From contig JAFGIV010000004.1 of the NCBI GenBank assembly GCA_016929435.1, positions 1 through 41,258 of the forward strand: a DNA stretch of 41,258 nucleotides, read 5' to 3'. The notes under the pieces are model-generated. The model made no database searches. It was given only the letters and a program-made list of their open reading frames with translations, and was not told where the DNA came from. The translations under genes and the position numbers were made by a program. The stretch is from Candidatus Uhrbacteria bacterium (GTDB lineage Bacteria; Patescibacteriota; Patescibacteriia; SG8-24). The number at the start of each line of letters is the position of its first letter. Within the stretch, counting starts at the first letter, position 1. Of the stretch, positions 3,087-41,258 are shown piece by piece.

Positions 3087-3761
3087 ATGGCAGAGAGAAG
3101 ATTGGTTCTGTTGGTTTTGGTTATGTTATTTGTTTTGGGTGTGCCTATATCGGCGTTCGCTCAGCAGACAGCCGGAGAGATTGGTATGGATTTGCGGTTG
3201 CCTTTCCGGTCAGATAACGCATATCTTGTGACCCAGACCTATTGCCCCAATGATTTGGATCCAGATGGGAACGCTTGTTTCTCCCATAAGAATTACTATC
3301 ATGTGGCTGGTTTGGATAATGATAACTATGCCATAGACTTTGCCGGCGGTAGTCCTTATGACGTATTGGCAACTGCGGATGGAACCGTTATAGAGAAGGG
3401 TCCTTACGGCGGGTGGGGAAATCAGATAAGGATAGAACATCCGAATGGATGCATATCTCGGTACGGTCATATGTCATCTTTTGCTTCAGGCGTCAATATA
3501 GGCACGTCAGTATCACAGGGGCAAAAAATAGGTGTGGAGGGGAATACGGGAAGTTCGACAGGTATACATATACACTTTTCCCTACATTGTCCTGTCCCCG
3601 GCAGTAATCCGACCTATTATGATCCAGTAATACCAGAGCCTATTTCTGGATACACTGATTTCATTAGGGTAATCAGTAACTCTTGCCACCAACTTGATCC
3701 TCAAAAAGCACCTCGAGAAGGTGCTTTTCTGTTTCTTTCATGGTCAGGTTTCGGTGATTGA
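3087..3761 (+). CDS. M23-family peptidase (secreted), 3' end altered by IS insertion
   Basis: Signal peptide; NYAIDFAGGSPYDVLATADGTVIEKGPYGGWGNQIRIEHPNGCISRYGHMSS...GIHIHFSL (LytM/M23 HxxxD and HxH motifs); SD aaggagg; last ~31 codons lie inside the IS. Confidence 0.85.
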   Translation: MAERRLVLLVLVMLFVLGVPISAFAQQTAGEIGMDLRLPFRSDNAYLVTQTYCPNDLDPDGNACFSHKNYYHVAGLDNDNYAIDFAGGSPYDVLATADGTVIEKGPYGGWGNQIRIEHPNGCISRYGHMSSFASGVNIGTSVSQGQKIGVEGNTGSSTGIHIHFSLHCPVPGSNPTYYDPVIPEPISGYTDFIRVISNSCHQLDPQKAPREGAFLFLSWSGFGD

Positions 3762-25997: not shown

Positions 25998-28058
25998 TCA
26001 TCGGGAAGAGATGCTGAACACGTCGGTGGAGAGGGCGATTATCTCGTCCGTGCCGTCGCGGTTAGTGTCCGAGGCCGCCACCACCACCCCATTGCGGCTG
26101 TTGGGGTCAGCGGCCATGAATCCGGGGTTCAGGAGCCGTCCGTAGCGGCTGAAGACCCGGACATGGGGGCCGCCGCCCGGACCGGAACCCGTGGCAATCT
26201 CCCTGGTGCCGTCGCCGTCAAAGTCACCGATGGCCACGTTGACCCCGCCGCGGAAGGCCGGATCGTAGGCCATGAACCCGTATAGCGGCTTTCCGTAAAG
26301 GTTGAAGACCCGGACATGGGGGCCGCCGCCCGGACCGGCACCGGCGATTATCACCGGCCAGCCGTTGCCGTAAAGGTCTCCGGCGGTGACGTTTATCCCG
26401 CCCCGAAAGTCCTGGCTGTAGGCGTGGAAACCGTTTCCGACGGGGGATCCGTCCAACCGGAAGACCCTGACCAGCGGGGCGTTTCCCGGACCGGTTCCGG
26501 TCACCACCTCCATCTTTCCGTCACGGTCCATGTCGGCTGCGGCCAGGCTGATTCCGGAACGGTAGGCATCGCCGTACGGACGGAACCGCGTCTCCCCGCC
26601 GTTGCCCATGACTATCCGGATCTCACCGCCGTTCCCGACAACCGTATCCTCCCGGCCGTCTCCGTCCAGGTCATCTATGAGGATTTGGGCACCGCCGGCC
26701 TGGGGGCGGACATAGGAGAAGAACCCGTTCCTGACCCGGTTTCCCAGACGGTCGAATATTCGGGCGTAGGACCCGTTGGGGAATCCGGTGCCGATCAGCC
26801 GATCGATGGGCTTCAGCAGGATCAGCCCGTCTTGGGGATGCACCGTAACCGAACTGACGATTCGCCCGTCGTTCGTCTGCGGATCCTGGGTTCCCCGTAT
26901 CCGCTCCATCTCCACGCCCAGGTCCACGTTACGGGAGACGCCGGTGGAGTTGACCAGGCTGATGCCGTTCTCGAAATCCCGCCGCCAGACTCCAGGGTAG
27001 GCGGTATCGTTGTTTCCGGTCAGGTTTACGGCCGGTCCGATCGGACGGCCCAGATCCGCACCCATCTCGTCATAGCGCCACATCTGCCCGTGGTCTGATT
27101 CGCCGAAGTCAAAGGAGAAGAACCCGTCTCCCAGGAGGGTGGAGCAGAGCGTAAAGCGAACCCGACGCCAGTCGGCATTCTGTCCGCTGTTGCCCGTGTT
27201 GCCGTTGATGATCATGGCGTTCGGATACCCGACCATGCGCTCCAGGCGGAAATAGTTGGCCATGGAATCCCTCCAGGTACCGGAACCCTCCCAAGGGGTG
27301 GGAAACGACTCGAACATCCGTCCGTTAACGTACGGCTGCAGCTCGGCGGACGAATCGCCGTTGATGACGATGACGGCTTCGGCCCCAAGGTATTCCCGGG
27401 TCGATTTCAGGATGTTGACCATGCCGCGACTCCAGGCCGTGTCCATCAGGTGTCGGTCGTCGGCCCGTCCGTCGCGGTGGAGGTCGATGTTGCCGCCGTT
27501 GGCCCAGGAGATGGTGGCCGAAAACTCGTCGTAGAATATCCCGTCCCAAAGTCCGGTGGACCATATCCGGTCACGGACGAACTGCGGCAGGTATTGGTTC
27601 CAGCCGCTTGCGCCGGAGAGCACCGCGGTTCCCGGCCAGACCGATATCCGGTTGCCCTGCGGATCAAGGAGCCACCAGTCGTCGCGGATGCCGGCCTCAA
27701 GTTGCCTGTGGAGGGAATCGACCCAGGAGTAGTTCCAGGACTTGGACGGGACGTAGGCCAGGAAAATGACGTTGGGGTTGATCTTCCGAACCTCCCCGAA
27801 CATTTCCCGGTTATAGACCTGCGCCTCGGCCGGCAGGATGATCAGGTCGTATTCTGCCAGTTGCGGGTAATGCTCCGGACGGATGTCGGTCCCGGCCTTC
27901 AGGTAATAGTTGGCCGTGCGAACGAACCTGTCCGCCGGGGTCTTCAGGGCCGCTTCGGCCGGGTCGGGAAAGGCGAAAGCCGCTGACCAGAAAATCAGGA
28001 TTAGCAACAGGACGGGAAGGGTGACTTTTCCGAACGGAACCGTATTGGGCAATTCCAT
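25998..28058 (-). CDS. Secreted glycoside hydrolase-like protein with C-terminal FG-GAP/VCBS-type repeats
   Basis: Signal peptide; TIM-barrel-like region (YDLIILPAEAQVYNREMFGEVRKINPNVIFLAYVPSKSW... WDGIFYDEFSA); repeats GDFDGDGTREIATGSGPGGGPHVRVF. Confidence 0.75.
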   Translation of the reverse strand: MELPNTVPFGKVTLPVLLLILIFWSAAFAFPDPAEAALKTPADRFVRTANYYLKAGTDIRPEHYPQLAEYDLIILPAEAQVYNREMFGEVRKINPNVIFLAYVPSKSWNYSWVDSLHRQLEAGIRDDWWLLDPQGNRISVWPGTAVLSGASGWNQYLPQFVRDRIWSTGLWDGIFYDEFSATISWANGGNIDLHRDGRADDRHLMDTAWSRGMVNILKSTREYLGAEAVIVINGDSSAELQPYVNGRMFESFPTPWEGSGTWRDSMANYFRLERMVGYPNAMIINGNTGNSGQNADWRRVRFTLCSTLLGDGFFSFDFGESDHGQMWRYDEMGADLGRPIGPAVNLTGNNDTAYPGVWRRDFENGISLVNSTGVSRNVDLGVEMERIRGTQDPQTNDGRIVSSVTVHPQDGLILLKPIDRLIGTGFPNGSYARIFDRLGNRVRNGFFSYVRPQAGGAQILIDDLDGDGREDTVVGNGGEIRIVMGNGGETRFRPYGDAYRSGISLAAADMDRDGKMEVVTGTGPGNAPLVRVFRLDGSPVGNGFHAYSQDFRGGINVTAGDLYGNGWPVIIAGAGPGGGPHVRVFNLYGKPLYGFMAYDPAFRGGVNVAIGDFDGDGTREIATGSGPGGGPHVRVFSRYGRLLNPGFMAADPNSRNGVVVAASDTNRDGTDEIIALSTDVFSISSR

Positions 28059-30735: not shown

Positions 30736-33700
30736 ATGCAAAACGCAATCAAGAAAGCGTTTACCGGTGCGATCGTCGCTTCGACCATCGTCTGGTCCAT
30801 TGGCCTGTCTGCCATCCCGTTTGCCGCCAAGGCAACTCCGGCTTCCGGCACCCTGGTCAAGGCTTCCCTTCCGGCCGTCTATTATGTCGGTGCGGATCAG
30901 AAACGCTATGTCTTCCCCAACGAGAAGACCTATAAGACCTGGTATGCCGATTTCTCCGGTGTCCAGATCATCACCGATGCCGAGCTTGCCGCTCTGCCGA
31001 TCGGTGGCAACGTGACCTACAAACCGGGTGTCCGGATGGTCAAGATCACGACCGATCCTAAGGTCTACGCTGTCGATGCCAATGGCACCCTGCGCTGGGT
31101 CACTTCCGAGGCCGCCGCTACCGCCATCTACGGCTCCAGCTGGAACCAGATGATCGACGACGTCTCTGACGCGTTCTTCACCAACTACAGGATCGGTTCC
31201 GATGTCCATGCGGCCTCGGACTTCGTCCCGGCCACGGCTTCCGCCGCTGCCACCTCCATCAATGTCGATAAGGGCCTGTCCGGTTTTGCCGACGGTTCCC
31301 TTACCGCCATGCTTTCCTCCGGTCAGCCGGTTGGGGGGACGATTCCGGGCAAGGCCACTGGCGTGGCCATGGTCAAGGTTGATGTCAAGAACAACAGCAC
31401 CAGCGCCATTACCCTGGACTCCATGACCGTCCGTCGCACGGGCGTCGGTTCCTATGCCGATTTCAGCTATGTGTATGCCTATGAGGGCAGCAACAGGCTG
31501 ACCACCGGCCGGACCATCAATTCCTCCAGCAATGAGGCCACCTTCGGCGGCCTGAACGTCACCCTGGCGGCTGGAGAGACCAAGACCCTGTGGGTCTCCG
31601 CTGACATGGGTACCGGCACTGCCGGCAACCAGAACAGCATCCAGGTCGTGTCCATCACGGCCGGTGCGGTCGCGGTTTCCGGTCTGCCGGTTTCCGGTCC
31701 GGTGTTTACGCTGGCCGGAGCCACTGTCGGTGCGATCACCATTGCGGCCAACGGTTCCTTCGTGAACGCCGAGGCCGGTTCCAATGCCAAGGTTGCCGAG
31801 TTCCAGCTGTCCGCCTCCTCTTCCGAGGATGTCATGCTGAACAAGGTCGCCCTGTACTACACCGGCACCACGGCCCGGGAGAACCTGTCCAACCTGACCC
31901 TGAAGCAGGCCGGAGTTACGGTGGCCACTGCCACCGGGATTTCCGTCAAGGACCTGGCCACCTTCCCCCTGAACGCTCCGTTCAAGCTGGAGAAGGGTTC
32001 CAGCCGCGTCTTCCAGGTGTATGCCGACATTTCCGGCAATGCCCGGGCTGACGAGACCGTTGCCTTCTACCTGGACAACGCCTCTGACCTGTATGCCATC
32101 GGTTCCACCTATGGCTATGGCGTCGAAGTCGTGCGCGCCGATTACGACGGCAGCTCCGCTGCCAAGAAGTCTTCCGTGACCATTGAGGCCGGCCAGCTGA
32201 ACATCACCTTCAACGGCCCGTCCTCCAAGGATGTTGGCATTGACGGCAAGGATGTTGAGATCTTCAACTTCACGATGACCGCCCAGAGCAACATCGAGGT
32301 CCGGAACGTCCGGATGAACCTGACTGCGGCCAATGTTGCCGGTGCGGGTGATGGTTTGGTTGATAGTTCCTCTTCCCCCTCCATCGCCAACTACAGCGAC
32401 ATCAAGCTGGTCGATACGGCCACCGGCGCGATTGTCGGCGGTCCGAAGGACCTGTCCATCGCTACCCATACGGCTGGTGCCGGTATTGATCTCGCCCAAG
32501 ATGTGACTTTCGACAGCGTGTTCAACATGTCTGCCGGTCAGAGCCGCACCTTCAAGCTGACTGTCGATGTCGCCAACAACTCGGCACTTGCCGCGTCCAC
32601 GGCCGATACCCTGACAGCCAAGCTGCTGCAGTTCGTTACGGGTGATGTCCGCAACCTGGACAACAACACCAATGTCGCTGACATCGTCCCGAATTCCGCT
32701 TCCGGAATCACCGGTAACGCCGCCACGCTGACCTCCTCGTCCCTGACCGCGTCCAGGGCCTCCACTCCGGTGGCCCAGACCTACATCAAGGGTGCCCAGG
32801 GCGTGTCCTTCGGCGGCCTGATCCTGAAGGCCAATGACGTCGGGGACATGATCGTCTCCAGCGTCACCATGACCCCGATCGACAACGGTACGAATGTCGG
32901 TGACTACGACGAGAGCATCCAGACCGCCAGCCTGTGGGACGGTGCCACCCAGATCGGCACTGTCCAGTCTCCGGACGGCACGTACGGCACGCTGGTCTTC
33001 TCCAACCTGAACCTGACGGTCCCGTCCGGCCAGTCGAAGACCCTGACCCTGAAGGTCAACCTGTCCGCTGTCGCCACGCCCAGCAACTACCAGTACAGCG
33101 TCAATGCGGCCGGTGACCTGTCGGTTACCGACGTCAACGGCGCCTCCAAGACCGCTGCCGGGACCTATCCGGTCCAGTTCAGCGTCATGACCATTGCCAA
33201 CGCCGGCAGCGTTACGGTTACCAAGGCTTCCGATGATTCCGAGTCCGAGACCGGCATCGTGATCGGCGGCGCCTCCAATGTCGTCCTGGCCAAGTACAAG
33301 CTGGATGCCATTGACGAGGAACTCCGCCTGGTCAAGGCCGCGTTCGACGTCAACGCCTCCGCTGCCACTGCCATCCAGAGCCTGTCTCTCTATGACGGTG
33401 CCACCATGGTCGGCGGTCCGATGTCGGTTGACGGCGCCGGTACCGCGGCTTTCACGGGCATGAACATGATCATCCCGAAGGATGGCTCCAAGATCCTGAC
33501 CGTCAAGGCCAACCTGAACTCCGTCGGTTCCTCCGGCGCGACCACTGGTTATGACCTGAAGGTTCAGCTGCTGACCACGGGCTTCCGGGTTGAGGGAACC
33601 TCCGGTTCCACGACCATTGAGACCCTTTCCAGCGCTGTTGACGGGAACAGCAAGGTCATCCGCAAGAGCAAGCCGACGATCGCCCTGGCCACGTTGAGCA

Positions 33701-34194
33701 ACGTTCTGGGGGCCGGTGCCCAATCGGTCATCCGCTTCTCCGTTACGGCTGATGCGGCCGGTGACATCTCCTTCAAGAAGATCACTGCCTATGTCGTCGA
33801 GAGCGGAACGGTTACCGTGACCGCTCCGTCCGACATTGACACGATCCTCAAGGACATCACCGGCGGCAACTACCTGAACGCCTCCACGGCGACCTATGCC
33901 ACCAGCGTCCTGACGATTGACCTGTACGAGGAGTTCACTGTCGGTGCCGGAACCACCAAGAACTTCGACATCTTCATGAACATATCCGGTGCGGTTTCCT
34001 CTGACAGCGTCACTTCCAGACTGCTGACGGATGACACCACGTTCACTACCGGTGACTATGCCGCAGCTGCGGCTGTCGGTGAGTTCGTCTGGTCTGACAA
34101 GTCGAAGACCAGCCACAGCACCTCTACCGAGGATTGGGCTACCGGCTACAAGGTGAAGACCTTGCCGTCCGACAGCCACACTCTCTCGAAATAG
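30736..34194 (+). CDS. S-layer-like secreted repeat protein (1152 aa) with N-terminal ~110-aa module
   Basis: Signal peptide; N-terminal module YYVGADQKRYVFPN...; multiple Ig-like repeats; Ala/Ser/Thr/Val rich; strong bias to GCC/ACC/AAG/CTG codons, consistent with high expression. Confidence 0.85.
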   Translation: MQNAIKKAFTGAIVASTIVWSIGLSAIPFAAKATPASGTLVKASLPAVYYVGADQKRYVFPNEKTYKTWYADFSGVQIITDAELAALPIGGNVTYKPGVRMVKITTDPKVYAVDANGTLRWVTSEAAATAIYGSSWNQMIDDVSDAFFTNYRIGSDVHAASDFVPATASAAATSINVDKGLSGFADGSLTAMLSSGQPVGGTIPGKATGVAMVKVDVKNNSTSAITLDSMTVRRTGVGSYADFSYVYAYEGSNRLTTGRTINSSSNEATFGGLNVTLAAGETKTLWVSADMGTGTAGNQNSIQVVSITAGAVAVSGLPVSGPVFTLAGATVGAITIAANGSFVNAEAGSNAKVAEFQLSASSSEDVMLNKVALYYTGTTARENLSNLTLKQAGVTVATATGISVKDLATFPLNAPFKLEKGSSRVFQVYADISGNARADETVAFYLDNASDLYAIGSTYGYGVEVVRADYDGSSAAKKSSVTIEAGQLNITFNGPSSKDVGIDGKDVEIFNFTMTAQSNIEVRNVRMNLTAANVAGAGDGLVDSSSSPSIANYSDIKLVDTATGAIVGGPKDLSIATHTAGAGIDLAQDVTFDSVFNMSAGQSRTFKLTVDVANNSALAASTADTLTAKLLQFVTGDVRNLDNNTNVADIVPNSASGITGNAATLTSSSLTASRASTPVAQTYIKGAQGVSFGGLILKANDVGDMIVSSVTMTPIDNGTNVGDYDESIQTASLWDGATQIGTVQSPDGTYGTLVFSNLNLTVPSGQSKTLTLKVNLSAVATPSNYQYSVNAAGDLSVTDVNGASKTAAGTYPVQFSVMTIANAGSVTVTKASDDSESETGIVIGGASNVVLAKYKLDAIDEELRLVKAAFDVNASAATAIQSLSLYDGATMVGGPMSVDGAGTAAFTGMNMIIPKDGSKILTVKANLNSVGSSGATTGYDLKVQLLTTGFRVEGTSGSTTIETLSSAVDGNSKVIRKSKPTIALATLSNVLGAGAQSVIRFSVTADAAGDISFKKITAYVVESGTVTVTAPSDIDTILKDITGGNYLNASTATYATSVLTIDLYEEFTVGAGTTKNFDIFMNISGAVSSDSVTSRLLTDDTTFTTGDYAAAAAVGEFVWSDKSKTSHSTSTEDWATGYKVKTLPSDSHTLSK

Positions 34195-34236
34195 AGCTGC
34201 GTGACAGGGTTTGACGGCACCTTGGAAAAAGCCGTC

Positions 34237-34271
34237 ACAAAAACCGGCCCCCGAAAGGGGGTCGGTTTTGT
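34237..34271 (+). terminator. Terminator of S-layer gene
   Basis: ACAAAAACCGGCCCCC-GAAA-GGGGGTCGGTTTTGT. Confidence 0.8.
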
Positions 34272-34567
34272 AGTCTCCAGCGCCCCCAACCCCCAAACCC
34301 AACGCCCCCCTAAATCCCCCAATACTGGGGGACTTGTGTGGAGGGGTTTGTTGTCTTGGCCCCCAAACCCCCTCCCTGCGGGAGACTTACGCCTTCAGGG
34401 GCTTAAGCGGAAGAATTTATTTATGGAAGCCTGATACGGTAGCTTTATGCTTGACCCTTTTTCGTTATTGTCAGGTTCCGGGGGGTCTGTTAACCTTATT
34501 TTAATCCGCAATGGGGCGGGATCAGGCACATTGACAACCTAATCATGCGAAAGGGATTGGTGAAGGC

Positions 34568-35560
34568 ATGAAACACGAACGAAAGCGAAATTCCGTTATC
34601 GTCAGCATCTTCAGGAAAACCGTTCAGGCGGTTGGAAAAATAGGGAGAATCATCAGGTCGCACCTGCGGCGGTCGGCGTTGGAGGTAATGTCGTTCCTGC
34701 TGGACAGGGATGCCCTGTTTCGAGTTATTGGGTTCTTCAACCGCAGGTTCGGGTTTTTGAAGACGGTATTTCTCCTTTACCCGGCCAATTTAAGGTATGC
34801 CCATGCCTATGTCTACGAAAGACGCAGGAAACGGATGTTTTGGGGACCGGAGTTTGTCGGTCTATTTAGGCAGAAGAACTGTAAAATTGGTTTGGTTTTC
34901 GGTATTTCCTCGGACGAGAAGATGATTAAGGATCCCAAAAATACAGAAAATCTGCTAAGGGTATTTGACCGGATGGAAGACATAAGGGTGATGTTGGGGG
35001 CGGAACGGAAGTCTTTTGCCGGTATCCTGCCCAGCATATTCCGTTCCCGCGGCTTTCCCCATGATTTCTGCGAGGCAGAGGTGACTGTCTTGGCCGTTAA
35101 AAAGGCGATTGAGGCCGTCAGGAAAACGGAAGGAATGGGAACGGGGGTACCGACTGTCGTTTTGGGCGGTCGGGGACTGATTGGCAGCCAGGTTGTCAAA
35201 AGCCTGTCCGATACCCCGGTTTTTGTCCTGGATTCGGCCGGATCGGAAGACGAAAGGAGATGGCCGGACGGATTAGGTCAAGACAGGGTTCTTTTGGTCA
35301 ATATCGCTTCGGTTAGGGCCCTGGAAAGTCAGGTAAAAATGCTGCATCCGGCGGCGGTCATACTGAATGAGGCTTATCCGGAGCCGCCGAAGGCGCTTAT
35401 CGAAAAGATCAGGGAAATTGGCTGCCCGATATATCACATTGCCGGTGTTTTGGCAGATTGGGTTTTACCGAATTTTTCAGGCGCCTATCGTGAAGCAATT
35501 CCGTGTTGTGCTGCTTGGCTTAATGAGGACATGGAGGTTTCGGTGATTCGTTTGGTTTAG
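34568..35560 (+). CDS. Hypothetical protein with Rossmann-like NAD(P)-binding segment
   Basis: TVVLGGRGLIGSQVVKSLSDTPVFVLDSAG (GxGxxG-like); complete 330-aa ORF. Confidence 0.65.
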   Translation: MKHERKRNSVIVSIFRKTVQAVGKIGRIIRSHLRRSALEVMSFLLDRDALFRVIGFFNRRFGFLKTVFLLYPANLRYAHAYVYERRRKRMFWGPEFVGLFRQKNCKIGLVFGISSDEKMIKDPKNTENLLRVFDRMEDIRVMLGAERKSFAGILPSIFRSRGFPHDFCEAEVTVLAVKKAIEAVRKTEGMGTGVPTVVLGGRGLIGSQVVKSLSDTPVFVLDSAGSEDERRWPDGLGQDRVLLVNIASVRALESQVKMLHPAAVILNEAYPEPPKALIEKIREIGCPIYHIAGVLADWVLPNFSGAYREAIPCCAAWLNEDMEVSVIRLV

Positions 35561-35569
35561 CTTGTATCC

Positions 35570-35597
35570 GCTACGGGTTCCCACCCGTAGCGTTTTT
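35570..35597 (+). terminator. Intrinsic terminator
   Basis: GCTACGGGT-TCCC-ACCCGTAGC-GTTTTT. Confidence 0.85.
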
Positions 35598-35599
35598 AA

Positions 35600-35608
35600 T
35601 GGTATAAT
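35600..35608 (+). promoter_or_regulatory. Extended -10 promoter (TGG-TATAAT) of the 7TM histidine kinase
   Basis: TGGTATAAT ends 10 nt before ATG 35619. Confidence 0.6.
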
Positions 35609-35618
35609 TTGGAAATAT

Positions 35619-37844
35619 ATGATCCCTATTTTCGACGACATAAACACCATACTGATCCTGGTCGCCCTGTTTAATCTCGTGTTGGGAATTTTGGTAATAG
35701 GGGGCGGAATCAGAAAATTGGCAAACGTCATTTACGGACTGAACATTTTTTCGGCAATCGGGTGGATTATTGCCATGGTTATGTACCGGGCGGCACCGCA
35801 GGAAACTGCCCTTTTTTGGACCGTGGTCCTCTATATAGCCCCAACCTTCATTGCCAGCAGTTTTTTGATTTTTTCATACGTGTTTCCGTCAAGATCACCC
35901 GGAATTTTTTTACGACAGTCGGTTACGATAATTCTTGTCAATCTGGCGGTGGTTGTCCTGACGGCTTGGCCGGAAATGGTGATAAAACAGGTCAACGTTC
36001 GACCGGGTCTTGAGAAAGAAATCATTTTCGGTAGGTTGTACTGGATTTACGTCATTTATACGTTGGCGTTTTTCTCCTACGGTTTTTACCGGATCTATCG
36101 GAAATTCAGTCAAAGTTCCGGTGTCGAGCGGTTACAGATAATTTACCTTCTTTTCGGCTACGCCCTGTCAACGAATTTGGCTTTCGTTACCAATTTAATC
36201 ATGCCGTGGTTGGGGTATTTTTTCCTTAATTGGCTCGGGCAGGTGTTCAGCATTTTCATGGTCGGTTTCATAACCTATGCCATTCTTCGCTATCGCCTGA
36301 TGGATGTTCGGTTGGCGGCAAGGAGAATGACGATTTGGTTGGCGTTGTCCGTCTTCACCTATGTCGTTTTTTTCGGACTGGTTTGGATGTTCAACAGCCA
36401 TCTGGGCGGGGTGGATACGGTCGGGGCCTATGCGTCGGCCGTGGTCATCGCTCCGGCTTTCGTGATCGTGTTTTTTGGGGTGGACCGACTGTTGAGGAGG
36501 TTTTTCAGCCGCTACGTTTTCGGCGACCTCTACACCTTCCAGGAGGCCATCGGCCGGCTGGCCGGGCGGCTGAACCACCTGGTCGGACTGGATAAGATCG
36601 TTCGGGAGATAGTCTCGACCATCCGCAGGACCATGGACCTGGACAGGGCCGCCCTCCTGCTGTGCGATTGGGGCGATCGGGACACTGCCTGCAGGGTGGC
36701 CTCGGTGGCCGGTTTTGCCAACGCCGATGACCTGGCCCGGGTGATGTCCGACAAGTTCATGCTGAATTACCTTCAGGATAGCCAAAATCCGTTGGTAAGG
36801 GATGAGGCCCGGATACTGGCCCGGAACGTTTCCGACCGGAAGGCCCGGGAGGGGTTTGAGACCCTCCGTTCCCTGATGGAACGGGCCGGGGCGGCCGTTT
36901 GCCTGCCGCTCGTCAACAACGACCGGATGATCGGGATCATCATCCTGGGGGACAAGGTTTCGGGCAACGCCTTCACCAAGGAGGACCTGGAGCTGCTTGA
37001 CACCCTGGCCAAGCAGGCCGGCATTGCCGTGGACAACGCCATCGTCTACCAGGAGATGGATGACCTTAACGTCCACCTGGAGGAGCGTGTGGCCGAACAG
37101 ACCGAGGACATCCGGAAGAAGAACGAGCACCTGCGGGAGCTTTTGAAGATGAAGTCGGAGTTCATGGACATCACTTCCCACCAGATGAAGACCCCGATCG
37201 CCATTGTCGGCGGTTACGTTTCCCTCCTGAACAGCGGAAAGATAAGGGGCACCAAAAAAAGGCAGGAGATCACCAGGAAGGCCGTGGAGGGGATAGAAAG
37301 GCTCAATGACGTCATTCATCGGTTTCTGGCGTCTTCCCGGGCCGAGGGGATGGATTTGGCGATCGACCGGGGGGAGGCGGATATGGTGGGCCTGGTCCGG
37401 TCCGTCTGTGAAGGCAAGAGGGAAATGGCCGAAGAAAAGGGGATCGGGCTGGAATTCAGGAACGAGGTCGAGGAACTGGCGGCGGATTTGGATGCGGGCC
37501 GCTTTTCCGAGGCTGTCGGAAACCTGATCGATAACGCCGTTTTTTACACCCAAAACGGCAAGGTGACGGTCAGGATGGCCGTCATGGACGGGCAGGCCGT
37601 CCTGGAGGTGGCGGATACCGGGATCGGCATTCCGGAAGGGGACCGGGTCAGGATATTCGATCGGTTCTCCCGCAGCCGAAACGCCGTCAAGGTCAAGCCG
37701 AACGGTTCGGGGTTGGGGCTGTTCATAGCCCGGAAAATCATTCGGGCCCACGGCGGGGACATCACCCTGGAGAGCGAGGAAGGCAAGGGAAGCACTTTCA
37801 CGATCCGGATCCCCCTGGCGAAATTGGCCAAGACAGCCCAATGA
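35619..37844 (+). CDS. Sensor histidine kinase with N-terminal multi-TM (7TM-type) and GAF domains (track start 35562; ATG 35619 preferred)
   Basis: 8-10 hydrophobic segments; GAF-like VCLPLVNNDRMIGIIILGDKVSG; H-box FMDITSHQMKTPIAIVGGY; VADTGIGIPEGDR, GSGLGLFIARKIIRAHGG. Confidence 0.9.
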   Translation: MIPIFDDINTILILVALFNLVLGILVIGGGIRKLANVIYGLNIFSAIGWIIAMVMYRAAPQETALFWTVVLYIAPTFIASSFLIFSYVFPSRSPGIFLRQSVTIILVNLAVVVLTAWPEMVIKQVNVRPGLEKEIIFGRLYWIYVIYTLAFFSYGFYRIYRKFSQSSGVERLQIIYLLFGYALSTNLAFVTNLIMPWLGYFFLNWLGQVFSIFMVGFITYAILRYRLMDVRLAARRMTIWLALSVFTYVVFFGLVWMFNSHLGGVDTVGAYASAVVIAPAFVIVFFGVDRLLRRFFSRYVFGDLYTFQEAIGRLAGRLNHLVGLDKIVREIVSTIRRTMDLDRAALLLCDWGDRDTACRVASVAGFANADDLARVMSDKFMLNYLQDSQNPLVRDEARILARNVSDRKAREGFETLRSLMERAGAAVCLPLVNNDRMIGIIILGDKVSGNAFTKEDLELLDTLAKQAGIAVDNAIVYQEMDDLNVHLEERVAEQTEDIRKKNEHLRELLKMKSEFMDITSHQMKTPIAIVGGYVSLLNSGKIRGTKKRQEITRKAVEGIERLNDVIHRFLASSRAEGMDLAIDRGEADMVGLVRSVCEGKREMAEEKGIGLEFRNEVEELAADLDAGRFSEAVGNLIDNAVFYTQNGKVTVRMAVMDGQAVLEVADTGIGIPEGDRVRIFDRFSRSRNAVKVKPNGSGLGLFIARKIIRAHGGDITLESEEGKGSTFTIRIPLAKLAKTAQ

Positions 37845-37891
37845 CCCGATTTTCGTGATACAATTCAAAGGATACATAACCGATTTCAATT

Positions 37892-39118
37892 ATGAACATG
37901 CGTTTTAAGGGAATGGTCAGCGGTCTTGTTGCCCTATGCGCCGTTGCGGCCGGAATGCCCACGGCCGCCCTGCCTGCGGAGGCCGGGGAAGCCTTCACGT
38001 ATGCTGCCGACGAGGATATCCAGGTGGCCGGTGTCCGGCTGCGCATCATGGCCGGATCGGTCCAGGACGGGCTGGTCGTTGACGGGGATTCGGTGACCGT
38101 TTCCGTTCCGAACGGGGAATCGTTCGAGATTCGGACCGTTGAACATCCGCCGCGGGCCCTGGACAACGATTCCGGGTTGGAGGCCTGCAACATCATGCGG
38201 AACCTCCAGAACCAGATGTTCATCAGCGGTCCCCAGGTGGTGGACATCCTGCCGTCCGCCCAATCCTGCTCAACGGCCGGTTACGGCACTGACCAGACCC
38301 CGACCGTCGAGATGACCGATCCGATGGAGGGACAGGAGCTGTTGACCGGACAGCCGGTCATGCTGTTCTGGAGAACCGGGGGCCTGGGGGTGGCTGCGGT
38401 CCGGATCCGGCTTTCCGTTGACGGCGGGTCGAGCTTTACCGTTCCGGTTGTCGATGACCTGATGGACGGCGGCTTTTACCAATGGACGGTTCCGGATATG
38501 GATTCGACCGATTCGGCCGTCCTGAAGATCGAGGGAACGGACGGATCGGGCAACGCGAAAGCGGTCGGCCTTTCCCCGACGTTCCGGATCAGGGGGACGG
38601 AACCGTCACCGACACCGCCGCCTGCCCCGTTGGCCTGGAATTTCGATGTCCAGGCCGCCAGGGACTCCTCCCCGACCGGCAGCATCGGCGACATGTTTTC
38701 CGGCGACGGTACGGGATCTGCCGAACTGGCCTGTGCCTCGGGATTGAGGATCAAGTCCAGGACCAGCCCGTCCGTCTATCTTTGCGGGGCGGACGGCAGG
38801 CGCCACGCCTTCCCCAACTCCAACATCTACAATTCCTGGTTCCTGGGGGATTTCGCCGGGGTGGTGGAGGTGAGCGACGATTTCCTGGCCAGCCTTCCGC
38901 TCGGCGCCAACGTGACGTATCGGGCCGGGATCAGGATGGTGAAGGTGGACACTGACCCGAAAACCTATGTGGTGGCACCGGGAAACGTCCTGCGTTGGGT
39001 GCCTTCGGAAGATGCTGCCGTGGCCCTGTACGGCGCTGACTGGAACCGGGAGATCGACGACCTGCCGGACTCCTTTTTCGCCGACTATTCCGTCGGCGAG
39101 CCGCTGGAACTGGAGTAG
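37892..39118 (+). CDS. Secreted protein with Ig-like domain and C-terminal copy of the ~110-aa surface module
   Basis: Signal peptide; PMEGQELLTGQPVMLFWRTGG...VRIRLSVDGGSSF; module VYLCGADGRRHAFPN...LRWVPSEDAAVALYGADWNREIDDLPDSFFADYSVG. Confidence 0.85.
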   Translation: MNMRFKGMVSGLVALCAVAAGMPTAALPAEAGEAFTYAADEDIQVAGVRLRIMAGSVQDGLVVDGDSVTVSVPNGESFEIRTVEHPPRALDNDSGLEACNIMRNLQNQMFISGPQVVDILPSAQSCSTAGYGTDQTPTVEMTDPMEGQELLTGQPVMLFWRTGGLGVAAVRIRLSVDGGSSFTVPVVDDLMDGGFYQWTVPDMDSTDSAVLKIEGTDGSGNAKAVGLSPTFRIRGTEPSPTPPPAPLAWNFDVQAARDSSPTGSIGDMFSGDGTGSAELACASGLRIKSRTSPSVYLCGADGRRHAFPNSNIYNSWFLGDFAGVVEVSDDFLASLPLGANVTYRAGIRMVKVDTDPKTYVVAPGNVLRWVPSEDAAVALYGADWNREIDDLPDSFFADYSVGEPLELE

Positions 39119-39138
39119 GGCGGCAGGACCTGAAGGCT

Positions 39139-41258
39139 ATGATGAAGACAAGAGCCATCCTGCTGGCCTTAGCCGTTTTGGCCTGGCCGGTTTCGGTTTT
39201 TGGCCAGCCGGTCAGCGACGCGGAATGCCGGGTTCCGGAGGGGACAATCCCCTCAGTGTCCCTCTTTTCCCCAAATGGCGGACAGCGGCTTGATCCGGGA
39301 ACCGTTTATGACATCGTCTGGTCGGCATCCGGAACCGATACGGTCCGAATTTCCCTGTCCCTGGACGGGGGGGAAACGTTTCCCCTGTCCGTAGCCGATT
39401 CGGCCGGCGGTTTCATGCATGCCTGGACGGTCGATGACTATGCGACAGACCGGGCCCGGATTCGGATTGAGGCCATTGATTCCTGCGGTGCGGTGGCGGC
39501 CGCGGCGGTCAGTGCCGGAGATTTTTCCATCAGGGGCCAGGGGAGGCTCCTTCCGGCCATACGGGAGACGGAAGTTTCGGTCTCAACCCCGGTTTCCGGT
39601 TCAGGGGTTTCCGGAATGGTCCTGATCCAGGCCAAGACCGAGATCGGGGCATCGTCCGTGGAATTCAAGATCACCGATTCCTCCGGAAACGCATCTTGGG
39701 AGGGGGATGCGGTAGGCAGCGACGACAACCGGTCATGGACCGGGTTTTGGGACAGTGCCGGATCGGAAAACGGGAATTACGAACTGACGGTTCGGGCCCG
39801 CGATGCGGACGGGCGGCTGGTCGGGGAAGCCGGACCTTTGGAATTTTCCGTAAGCAACCTCACCCTGCCGTCCATCAATACCGGTGTCCTGGACCCTTCA
39901 CACGGGGAGACCGTGCGCGGAACCATCATATTGAATGCCCTGACCGACCTGGAGGCCGAGGCCCTGGATTTCGTCATTCGACCGGATTTTTCGGCGGTTT
40001 CCGCCGAACCGGCCGTGGTTTACGGGCTGACCGGGGAAAGCCGGTTCCTGTGGACCGCATCTTTCGATACGCGCCGGTACCCGAACGGCCGGTACCTGGT
40101 GAGGGCCAAGGCCTATGTATCCGGGACGGTGGTCGGGGAGGGCCGGGAGGTGGAGGTGACTTTCGACAATCCGGAGGCTAGGAAAATCGCCGTTTCCGTC
40201 TCCTCCCCGTCCCCAGGCGCTGCCGTGGAGGGTGAGGTCGCCCTGGTGGCCAGAACGCTGACCGCCGGGGAAGCGGTGGATTTCGTCATTACGGAAGACA
40301 CATCGGCCGGCGGTGAGGCGGAGCCGATCGTGGTCAGGGCCACTCCTGACCTGGAAAAAAAGAAATGGACTGCCCTGTGGAAAAGTTACGGGATGGCGAA
40401 CGGCAGCTACGGACTGAAGGCCAAGTCCTATAGGGACGGGATTTTGGCCGGGGAAAGCGCAATGCAGGCCGTAAGGGTCGCAAACAGCCTGTCCCTGGTT
40501 GGGGTCGGCCTGGTATCTCCCGTGCCCGGACAAACCGTGAACGGGCCGGTGGGGTTGGAGGCCGAAGTCGGGGAAGCGGTGGAAAGGGTGGATTTCCTGA
40601 TTTGGGCCGGTGATGCCCCGGCCGGATCCGGACCGACCGTCCTTCCGGCCGAAGCCGTTCCCGGAAACCTCCGTTGGCTGTCCGTTTGGGACACGTCGGC
40701 AGAGTTGGACGGGCGCTACCGGATACAGGTCAGGGCCTGGCACGGGGATCGGAGCGTCGGCGAATCGCCGAAGGCCGAGATGCATGTCCGCAACGGCCTG
40801 ACCGGCGGTTTTTCCTCCGGCGGGTTGAGTTTGGCGGAGCGTTTGGCCCCGGAAACCGACCCGAACAGGGAAGGGGAATACGACCGGGAATCAGCCATGG
40901 GTTCCACCCCGACCGTTAACGTCAGCCTGGGCCTGATTGATCCCTCCGGCCGGGAATACCTGCTTCCCCCGGGCTCGCTCTTCAAGGCAGAGGGATCGCC
41001 GGCCGTATACTATTACGGCAGGGACGGCCGCCGTTACGGTTTTCCCGATTCCCGGACCTTTTTCACCTGGTACGGAAACTTCGACAATGTCCGGACCGTC
41101 GGCGCTTCGGTCGTGGCCGCCATTCCGCTCGGCGGCAGCGTCACCTACCGGCCCGGAACCCGCCTGGTGAAGATAACCTCCGATCCCAAGGTCTATGCCG
41201 TGGCCCGGGGAGGGGTTCTTCGGTGGGTCAGGAGCGAGGTTGTCGCCAGGCGCCTTTA
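39139..41258 (+). CDS. Large secreted multi-Ig-repeat protein with the same surface module; open at window end (partial, not in ORF track)
   Basis: Continuous frame from ATG 39139 (MMKTRAILLALAVLAWPVSVFGQPV...) with no stop to 41258; four Ig-like repeats; module VYYYGRDGRRYGFPD...LRWVRSEVVA. Confidence 0.88.
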   Translation, partial: MMKTRAILLALAVLAWPVSVFGQPVSDAECRVPEGTIPSVSLFSPNGGQRLDPGTVYDIVWSASGTDTVRISLSLDGGETFPLSVADSAGGFMHAWTVDDYATDRARIRIEAIDSCGAVAAAAVSAGDFSIRGQGRLLPAIRETEVSVSTPVSGSGVSGMVLIQAKTEIGASSVEFKITDSSGNASWEGDAVGSDDNRSWTGFWDSAGSENGNYELTVRARDADGRLVGEAGPLEFSVSNLTLPSINTGVLDPSHGETVRGTIILNALTDLEAEALDFVIRPDFSAVSAEPAVVYGLTGESRFLWTASFDTRRYPNGRYLVRAKAYVSGTVVGEGREVEVTFDNPEARKIAVSVSSPSPGAAVEGEVALVARTLTAGEAVDFVITEDTSAGGEAEPIVVRATPDLEKKKWTALWKSYGMANGSYGLKAKSYRDGILAGESAMQAVRVANSLSLVGVGLVSPVPGQTVNGPVGLEAEVGEAVERVDFLIWAGDAPAGSGPTVLPAEAVPGNLRWLSVWDTSAELDGRYRIQVRAWHGDRSVGESPKAEMHVRNGLTGGFSSGGLSLAERLAPETDPNREGEYDRESAMGSTPTVNVSLGLIDPSGREYLLPPGSLFKAEGSPAVYYYGRDGRRYGFPDSRTFFTWYGNFDNVRTVGASVVAAIPLGGSVTYRPGTRLVKITSDPKVYAVARGGVLRWVRSEVVARRL

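Follow-up and report, generated by a model that had tools for sequence, protein, structure and literature searches.

Contig JAFGIV010000004.1 of a Candidatus Uhrbacteria genome, analysed here over its whole length of 41,258 nucleotides (the window; contig C23 in our numbering), encodes three proteins, P0001, P0002 and P0003, that share the surface module studied here. With copy 1 (P0001) as query, a search of the genome recovers copy 2 (P0002; E=6.7e-38, 53% identity), copy 3 (P0003; E=5.0e-30, 56% identity) and two extra copies on contig C10 (E=1.9e-37 and 6.3e-23), giving a genome total of five. These matches far exceed chance. The three window copies are all in frame and are homologous, as the initial annotation had claimed; since the window is the whole contig, copy 3 is cut at the contig end. 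The same annotation placed the module at the N-terminus of one protein and behind Ig-like repeats in the other two. Copy 1 is indeed N-terminal and copies 2 and 3 are C-terminal, but Ig-like repeats are confirmed only for P0003, where Pfam Big_7 matches three stretches (E=7.3e-15), the match in P0002 being sub-threshold (E=0.1). In P0001, a match to fn3_5 stays under its cut-off, and no other Ig-like Pfam match lies above threshold.

Table 1. Coordinates of the module-bearing genes and their features within the window
Feature	Position	Strand	Basis
P0001, S-layer-like secreted protein, 1152 aa, N-terminal module	30736..34194	+	translation; codon bias; class-wide counterparts
Module copy 1 as earlier delimited	P0001 aa 45-154		
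Module copy 1, unit 1 (GTLVK..VYYVGADQKRYVFPNEKTYKTWY..GVQIITDAELAALPIGGNVTYKP)	30844..31026	+	unit 1 vs unit 2 profile alignment; AlphaFold2 strands and helices
Module copy 1, unit 2 (GVRMVKITTDPKVYAVDANGTLRWVTSEAAATAIYG..IDDVSDAFFTNYRIGSDV)	31027..31206	+	unit 1 vs unit 2 profile alignment; AlphaFold2 model
SINVDKGL linker motif, ~17 residues past the P0001 module	31255..31278	+	motif counts
P0002, secreted, 408 aa, C-terminal module	37892..39118	+	translation; module 4 residues from end
Module copy 2; units ~38738-38926 and ~38927-39106	38738..39106	+	genome search, profile
Module copy 2 as earlier delimited	P0002 aa 292-402		
P0003, 706 aa or more, module preceded by three Big_7 Ig-like stretches; gene incomplete at contig end	39139..41256	+	
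Module copy 3, incomplete at contig end: all of unit 1 (~40969-41154), roughly half of unit 2	40969..41256	+	
Module copy 3 as earlier delimited	from P0003 aa 620		

Tandem units and their distribution

The module had been described as a single domain of ~110 aa. This view must be corrected: extension by 8-10 residues upstream reveals a tandem pair of ~60-aa units, whose true start lies ~8 residues earlier than previously set. The units follow the pattern x-L-V-K-x(5-8)-VYxV-x(2)-dGkR-xxF-x-(helix)-x-V-xxisD-xxL-xxxxxG, and the profiles of units 1 and 2 align in register over 55 columns (P=1.7e-5). A shorter cut of the units gives P=0.0012, the best of 20 shuffles reaching 0.011. It should be kept in mind that these P-values, like all profile P-values below, are single pairwise comparisons and depend on the alignments built for this analysis. 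AlphaFold2 prediction, proposed in the initial annotation as a check, yields a confident two-unit fold for the extended pair, with a mean predicted local distance difference test score (pLDDT) of 97.3 and a predicted TM score (pTM) of 0.86, in which each unit runs strand-strand-strand-helix-strand-helix-strand. The aromatic residues Y15, W35, W102 and Y117 of the 125-aa model (P0001 aa 34-158) are conserved. A supposed likeness to propeller-type repeats was dropped in light of this model.

Of 162 N-terminal copies, 62 are followed after ~16-17 residues by a SINVDKGL-type motif, S/N-I-N-x-D-K-G-L in its loose form; in the same proteins, the background is 2% of 50-aa windows. The motif is at times found near C-terminal copies too.

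A hidden Markov model (HMM) was built from the module copies and used in a class-wide search, again a check suggested earlier. Profile searches detect the module in 108 of the 144 sampled genomes of the class (Patescibacteriia) and in 64 of 380 genomes across the phylum. Four 100-base stretches (L270, L277-L279) were placeholders and were left out of the analysis. The loci fetched first yield 268 module proteins, each of which carries exactly one module. In a set of 202 complete, non-identical proteins, some from other classes, 130 have the module directly behind the signal peptide or N-terminus, starting at aa 33-99; in 63 it ends no more than 75 residues before the C-terminus, and in nine it is internal. 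The module tree contains 14 changes between N- and C-terminal placement; many of its forks are unresolved, and the well-supported branches force at least four changes of C-terminal placement, which bears out the mobility that the initial annotation had proposed. Outside the class, related units form tandem arrays of 2-7: three stand at the N-terminus of S-layer-like proteins of ~1,140-1,370 aa in other classes (loci L251, L254 and L256), and seven detected units end a protein with Amidase_2, SpoIID and PA14 domains in another class (L240). We did not find an earlier description of the module in the open-access literature that was searched.

S-layer-like and accessory proteins

Fourteen genomes, all picked among module-bearing ones, were studied closely. 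Each encodes at least one protein of ~1,120-1,365 aa with an N-terminal module, 13 having exactly one and the last (G438; L149, L151, L152) having four. The four proteins of G438 are ~1,120-1,270 aa long, two of their modules are identical, and the set possibly represents alternative S-layer variants. In the window this type is represented by P0001, whose codon usage and expression were judged from the window contig and the ribosomal operon. Its effective number of codons, 34.1, is the lowest among the 31 window genes tested and close to that of EF-Tu (33.4); the protein has an isoelectric point of 4.68, 22% serine plus threonine, no cysteine after the signal region and a signal-like N-terminus. 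The low codon number, the acidic isoelectric point and the lack of cysteine fit an abundant surface protein, and from these sequence features we infer P0001 to be a candidate lattice-forming S-layer protein.

Most of the 14 genomes also encode accessory module proteins. The domains that Pfam identifies alongside the module include Peptidase_M23 (L134, a cluster of five proteins), the proteases Peptidase_S8 (L057) and Trypsin_2 (L175, L249), and Glyco_hydro_114 (L122), NAGPA (L183), CBM96 (L186) and Lectin_C (L196). SH3_3 occurs in L160 and L183, CE2_N with a sub-threshold GDSL lipase match in L182, Cupredoxin_1 in both scanned members of a cluster of 58 proteins of ~263 aa, and Ig-like domains as Big_1, Big_5, Big_7 or fn3. 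By analogy with the established architecture of endolysins and autolysins, peptidoglycan endopeptidases and amidases that carry the module at one end appear to be organised like enzymes equipped with a wall-binding domain. Genes for module plus cupredoxin often adjoin a ~470-aa module plus Ig-like gene and at times a ~183-aa module-only gene (L028, L036, L041, L047, L055, L065 and others); this group is a repeated surface gene cluster, possibly with a role in copper or redox chemistry.

Accessory modules are more alike within a genome than between genomes. Their mean identity is 0.469 in the first case and 0.406 in the second, a difference matched by none of 1000 shuffles, and they are closer to the S-layer-like module of their own genome (0.508) than to foreign ones (0.444). 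Such likeness is expected if all of them bind one cell-specific partner.

In the window, a 7TM-GAF histidine kinase gene (35562-37844) stands on the same strand between the P0001 gene and both accessory module genes. Two further products lack the module: a secreted GHL15-type glycoside hydrolase with FG-GAP repeats (25998-28058, minus strand), which has the top codon adaptation in the window, and a Peptidase_M23 protein (3087-3761), whose G+C content at third codon positions (0.40) is far below that of most of the window.

Remote relatives of the units

The initial annotation recognised no named family for the module, and no credible match exists in Pfam, NCBIfam or PHROGs. The module thus still has no family name, but it is not without kin, as remote relatives do exist among the repeats of EccB and among phage proteins. 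When the extended model is compared with the PDB by Foldseek, the first ten matches are EccB without exception (best E=4.1e-3, probability 0.95), followed by a MACPF protein (rank 11), the endolysin LysIME-EF1 (6ist; rank 12) and EccB3 (rank 13). The shorter model again finds EccB first, with LysIME-EF1 at rank 11. Profiles of the EccB repeats, taken from 14 actinobacterial plasmids, agree: the merged unit matches R1 (P=4.3e-6), R4 (P=9.4e-7) and R2 (P=1.6e-3), with no significant match to R3 (P=0.097). Against the merged EccB repeats it scores P=2.7e-5, a level reached by none of 300 column shuffles (best 0.015), the reversed profile giving 0.047. A unit profile built from the outgroup only reproduces the same relations (R4, 4.8e-7; R1, 2.1e-5; phage unit, 2.7e-10). 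The beta sheet and two helices of the model, in EccB order, together with this profile relation, place the module in the EccB-repeat/PlyCB-like fold class. The EccB family itself (PF05108) has no match in the module proteins and none in the genome studied here, a search in which the control genomes were also silent.

In a library of viral folds, the module is closest to a protein of 115 aa from Rhodococcus phage Weasels2, aligned over its full length (E=4.9e-7, TM scores 0.70/0.75), which we took to be gene 88 from its length and unit pattern rather than from an accession. The matches that follow include a Streptomyces phage protein and, at lower rank, proteins with a CHAP domain (E=0.018, probability 0.98) and with an amidase domain. 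The Weasels2-type family, phrog_9616, is present in 134 phage records; its profile matches the module over 88 columns spanning both units (P=2.4e-6; best of 200 shuffles, 0.01), and the second phage unit matches the merged unit with P=1.2e-8.

Other searches gave nothing comparable. Scans of viral contigs by unit pattern returned no match, tblastn of plasmids with the module only weak Rhizobium matches, and a PDB sequence search with the module only chance-level ones. A Tsukamurella phage tblastn match (E=2) lay in a different reading frame from the annotated gene and was dropped. Of 120 modules, 24 matched Pfam NdhS (best 9.5e-5); since copy 1 reaches 14.5 bits where the cut-off is 27, we took this as chance, or at most as a shared small-beta-barrel pattern.

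A putative wall anchor

Of the earlier proposal of a mobile docking or envelope-attachment domain, the part that stands is that the module is mobile, terminal and common to S-layer-like and accessory proteins. Its fold and its partner domains point to the cell wall. A wall of peptidoglycan is expected in this bacterium, since the genome encodes three penicillin-binding-type transpeptidases and one sortase. We favour, with a probability of roughly two in three, a non-covalent wall anchor that would resemble the SLH domain in role while being unrelated to it, and that would display an S-layer-like coat together with enzymes. After Sec export, the two tandem ~60-aa units, whose fold class also includes EccB repeats and the wall-binding domains of phages, would most likely bind a glycan of the producer's own wall, be it peptidoglycan or a glycopolymer linked to the wall. 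The coat would be built by one abundant beta-domain protein of ~1,200 aa, anchored through its N-terminus, and the same module would keep accessory enzymes, cupredoxins and Ig-like proteins on that wall. The binding, its ligand and the formation of a lattice by the large protein are what we infer from sequence and models.

Several observations weigh against this wall anchor. The PDB matches are individually weak, none being better than E=4.1e-3, and wall binding by EccB is itself unproven according to its authors (PMC4769845). The 14 genomes were selected from module carriers. The likeness among modules of one genome is weaker once the most extreme genome, G331, is left out (7 of 1000 shuffles then reach it), and recent gene duplication could explain it. 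The phage relatives are standalone proteins of unassigned function and could bind protein. Moreover, the sortase implies that other anchoring routes exist.

The module could instead dock proteins to one another, binding for example the S-layer-like protein, in which case accessory proteins would attach to the lattice and not to a glycan. Such docking would suit a terminal module common to a putative lattice protein and its accessories, and the same-genome likeness fits a protein partner equally well. EccB repeats pack against one another (PMC4769845). Yet the module is also N-terminal in the presumed lattice protein itself in all 14 genomes, and unit arrays on an amidase of another class and in phages of other bacteria fit a wall ligand better, which makes docking unlikely. 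Somewhat less likely still is an adhesin or lectin directed at a host or neighbouring cell, helping an episymbiont to attach and deliver hydrolases. Partner hydrolases could act on another cell, the genes of the phage relatives immediately follow those of minor tail proteins, and peptidoglycan-binding proteins have been proposed to act in host attachment of Paceibacteria (PMC10936435). In the dominant proteins, however, the signal peptide and the module are followed by a long stretch, as in a protein that is anchored at one end and exposed over the remainder, and the module is kept across most of a class with presumably different hosts. A signal for sorting or secretion that is cleaved off or recognised in the course of export, as with the C-terminal domain of the type IX secretion system (T9SS) or PEP-CTERM, would account for the terminal placement and the single module per protein, but it is highly improbable for a module that occurs at either end, has a confident two-unit globular fold and is repeated 2-7 times in other classes. 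Sorting signals do not usually show any of these three traits.

For all members of the candidate phyla radiation (CPR) studied, how the cell envelope forms and is structured has been called unclear (PMC5220378). The wall-anchor reading offers a candidate means of surface-coat attachment in a class whose sampled genomes lack SLH, and a small, confidently modelled domain makes the question of coat anchoring in Patescibacteria testable. A broader idea, which we put forward tentatively and hold at somewhat below even odds, is that one ancient glycan-binding unit, so far known only as EccB repeats and PlyCB-type domains, serves as a general wall anchor in a large part of Patescibacteria (two units in this class, 2-7 in others), carrying S-layers and surface enzymes in place of SLH, while the same unit acts in actinophage tails and ESX systems. 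It would provide a common hypothesis for the unexplained EccB repeats and the phage family phrog_9616.

Among known systems, SLH too consists of ~55-aa repeats, is terminal and is common to S-layer and associated proteins. It binds secondary wall polymer non-covalently, and non-covalent binding is what we propose for the module. No sequence relation between the two was found, and SLH acts as three units where the module would act as two in this class. SLH (PF00395) matches none of the 144 class genomes, the control being positive in four genomes, and has no Pfam match in the module proteins; SLH genes have been reported in another patescibacterial family, the Absconditicoccaceae (PMC13059738). 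The EccB repeats R1-R4 of the type VII (ESX) system are likewise ~50-60-aa units of a beta sheet and two helices. In the EccB1 structure, the four repeats were found to resemble PlyCB, the wall-binding ring of a phage lysin, the likeness of R1 being detected by Dali (PMC4769845). In EccB, however, which belongs to a membrane machine, the four repeats surround a core domain, whereas the module places two adjacent units at the ends of secreted proteins. With PlyCB and LysIME-EF1 the likeness is weak and at fold level only, and these proteins form rings of eight and four, respectively; yet 6ist is among the best PDB matches of the module, and wall binding is their published role. Finally, the phrog_9616 proteins of Streptomyces and Rhodococcus phages (L284:4195-4542, L286, L287) share the two units in ~115 aa, but they are standalone and lack an obvious signal peptide. 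Their genes immediately follow minor tail genes wherever the latter are annotated, and the proteins are candidate wall-binding tail proteins.

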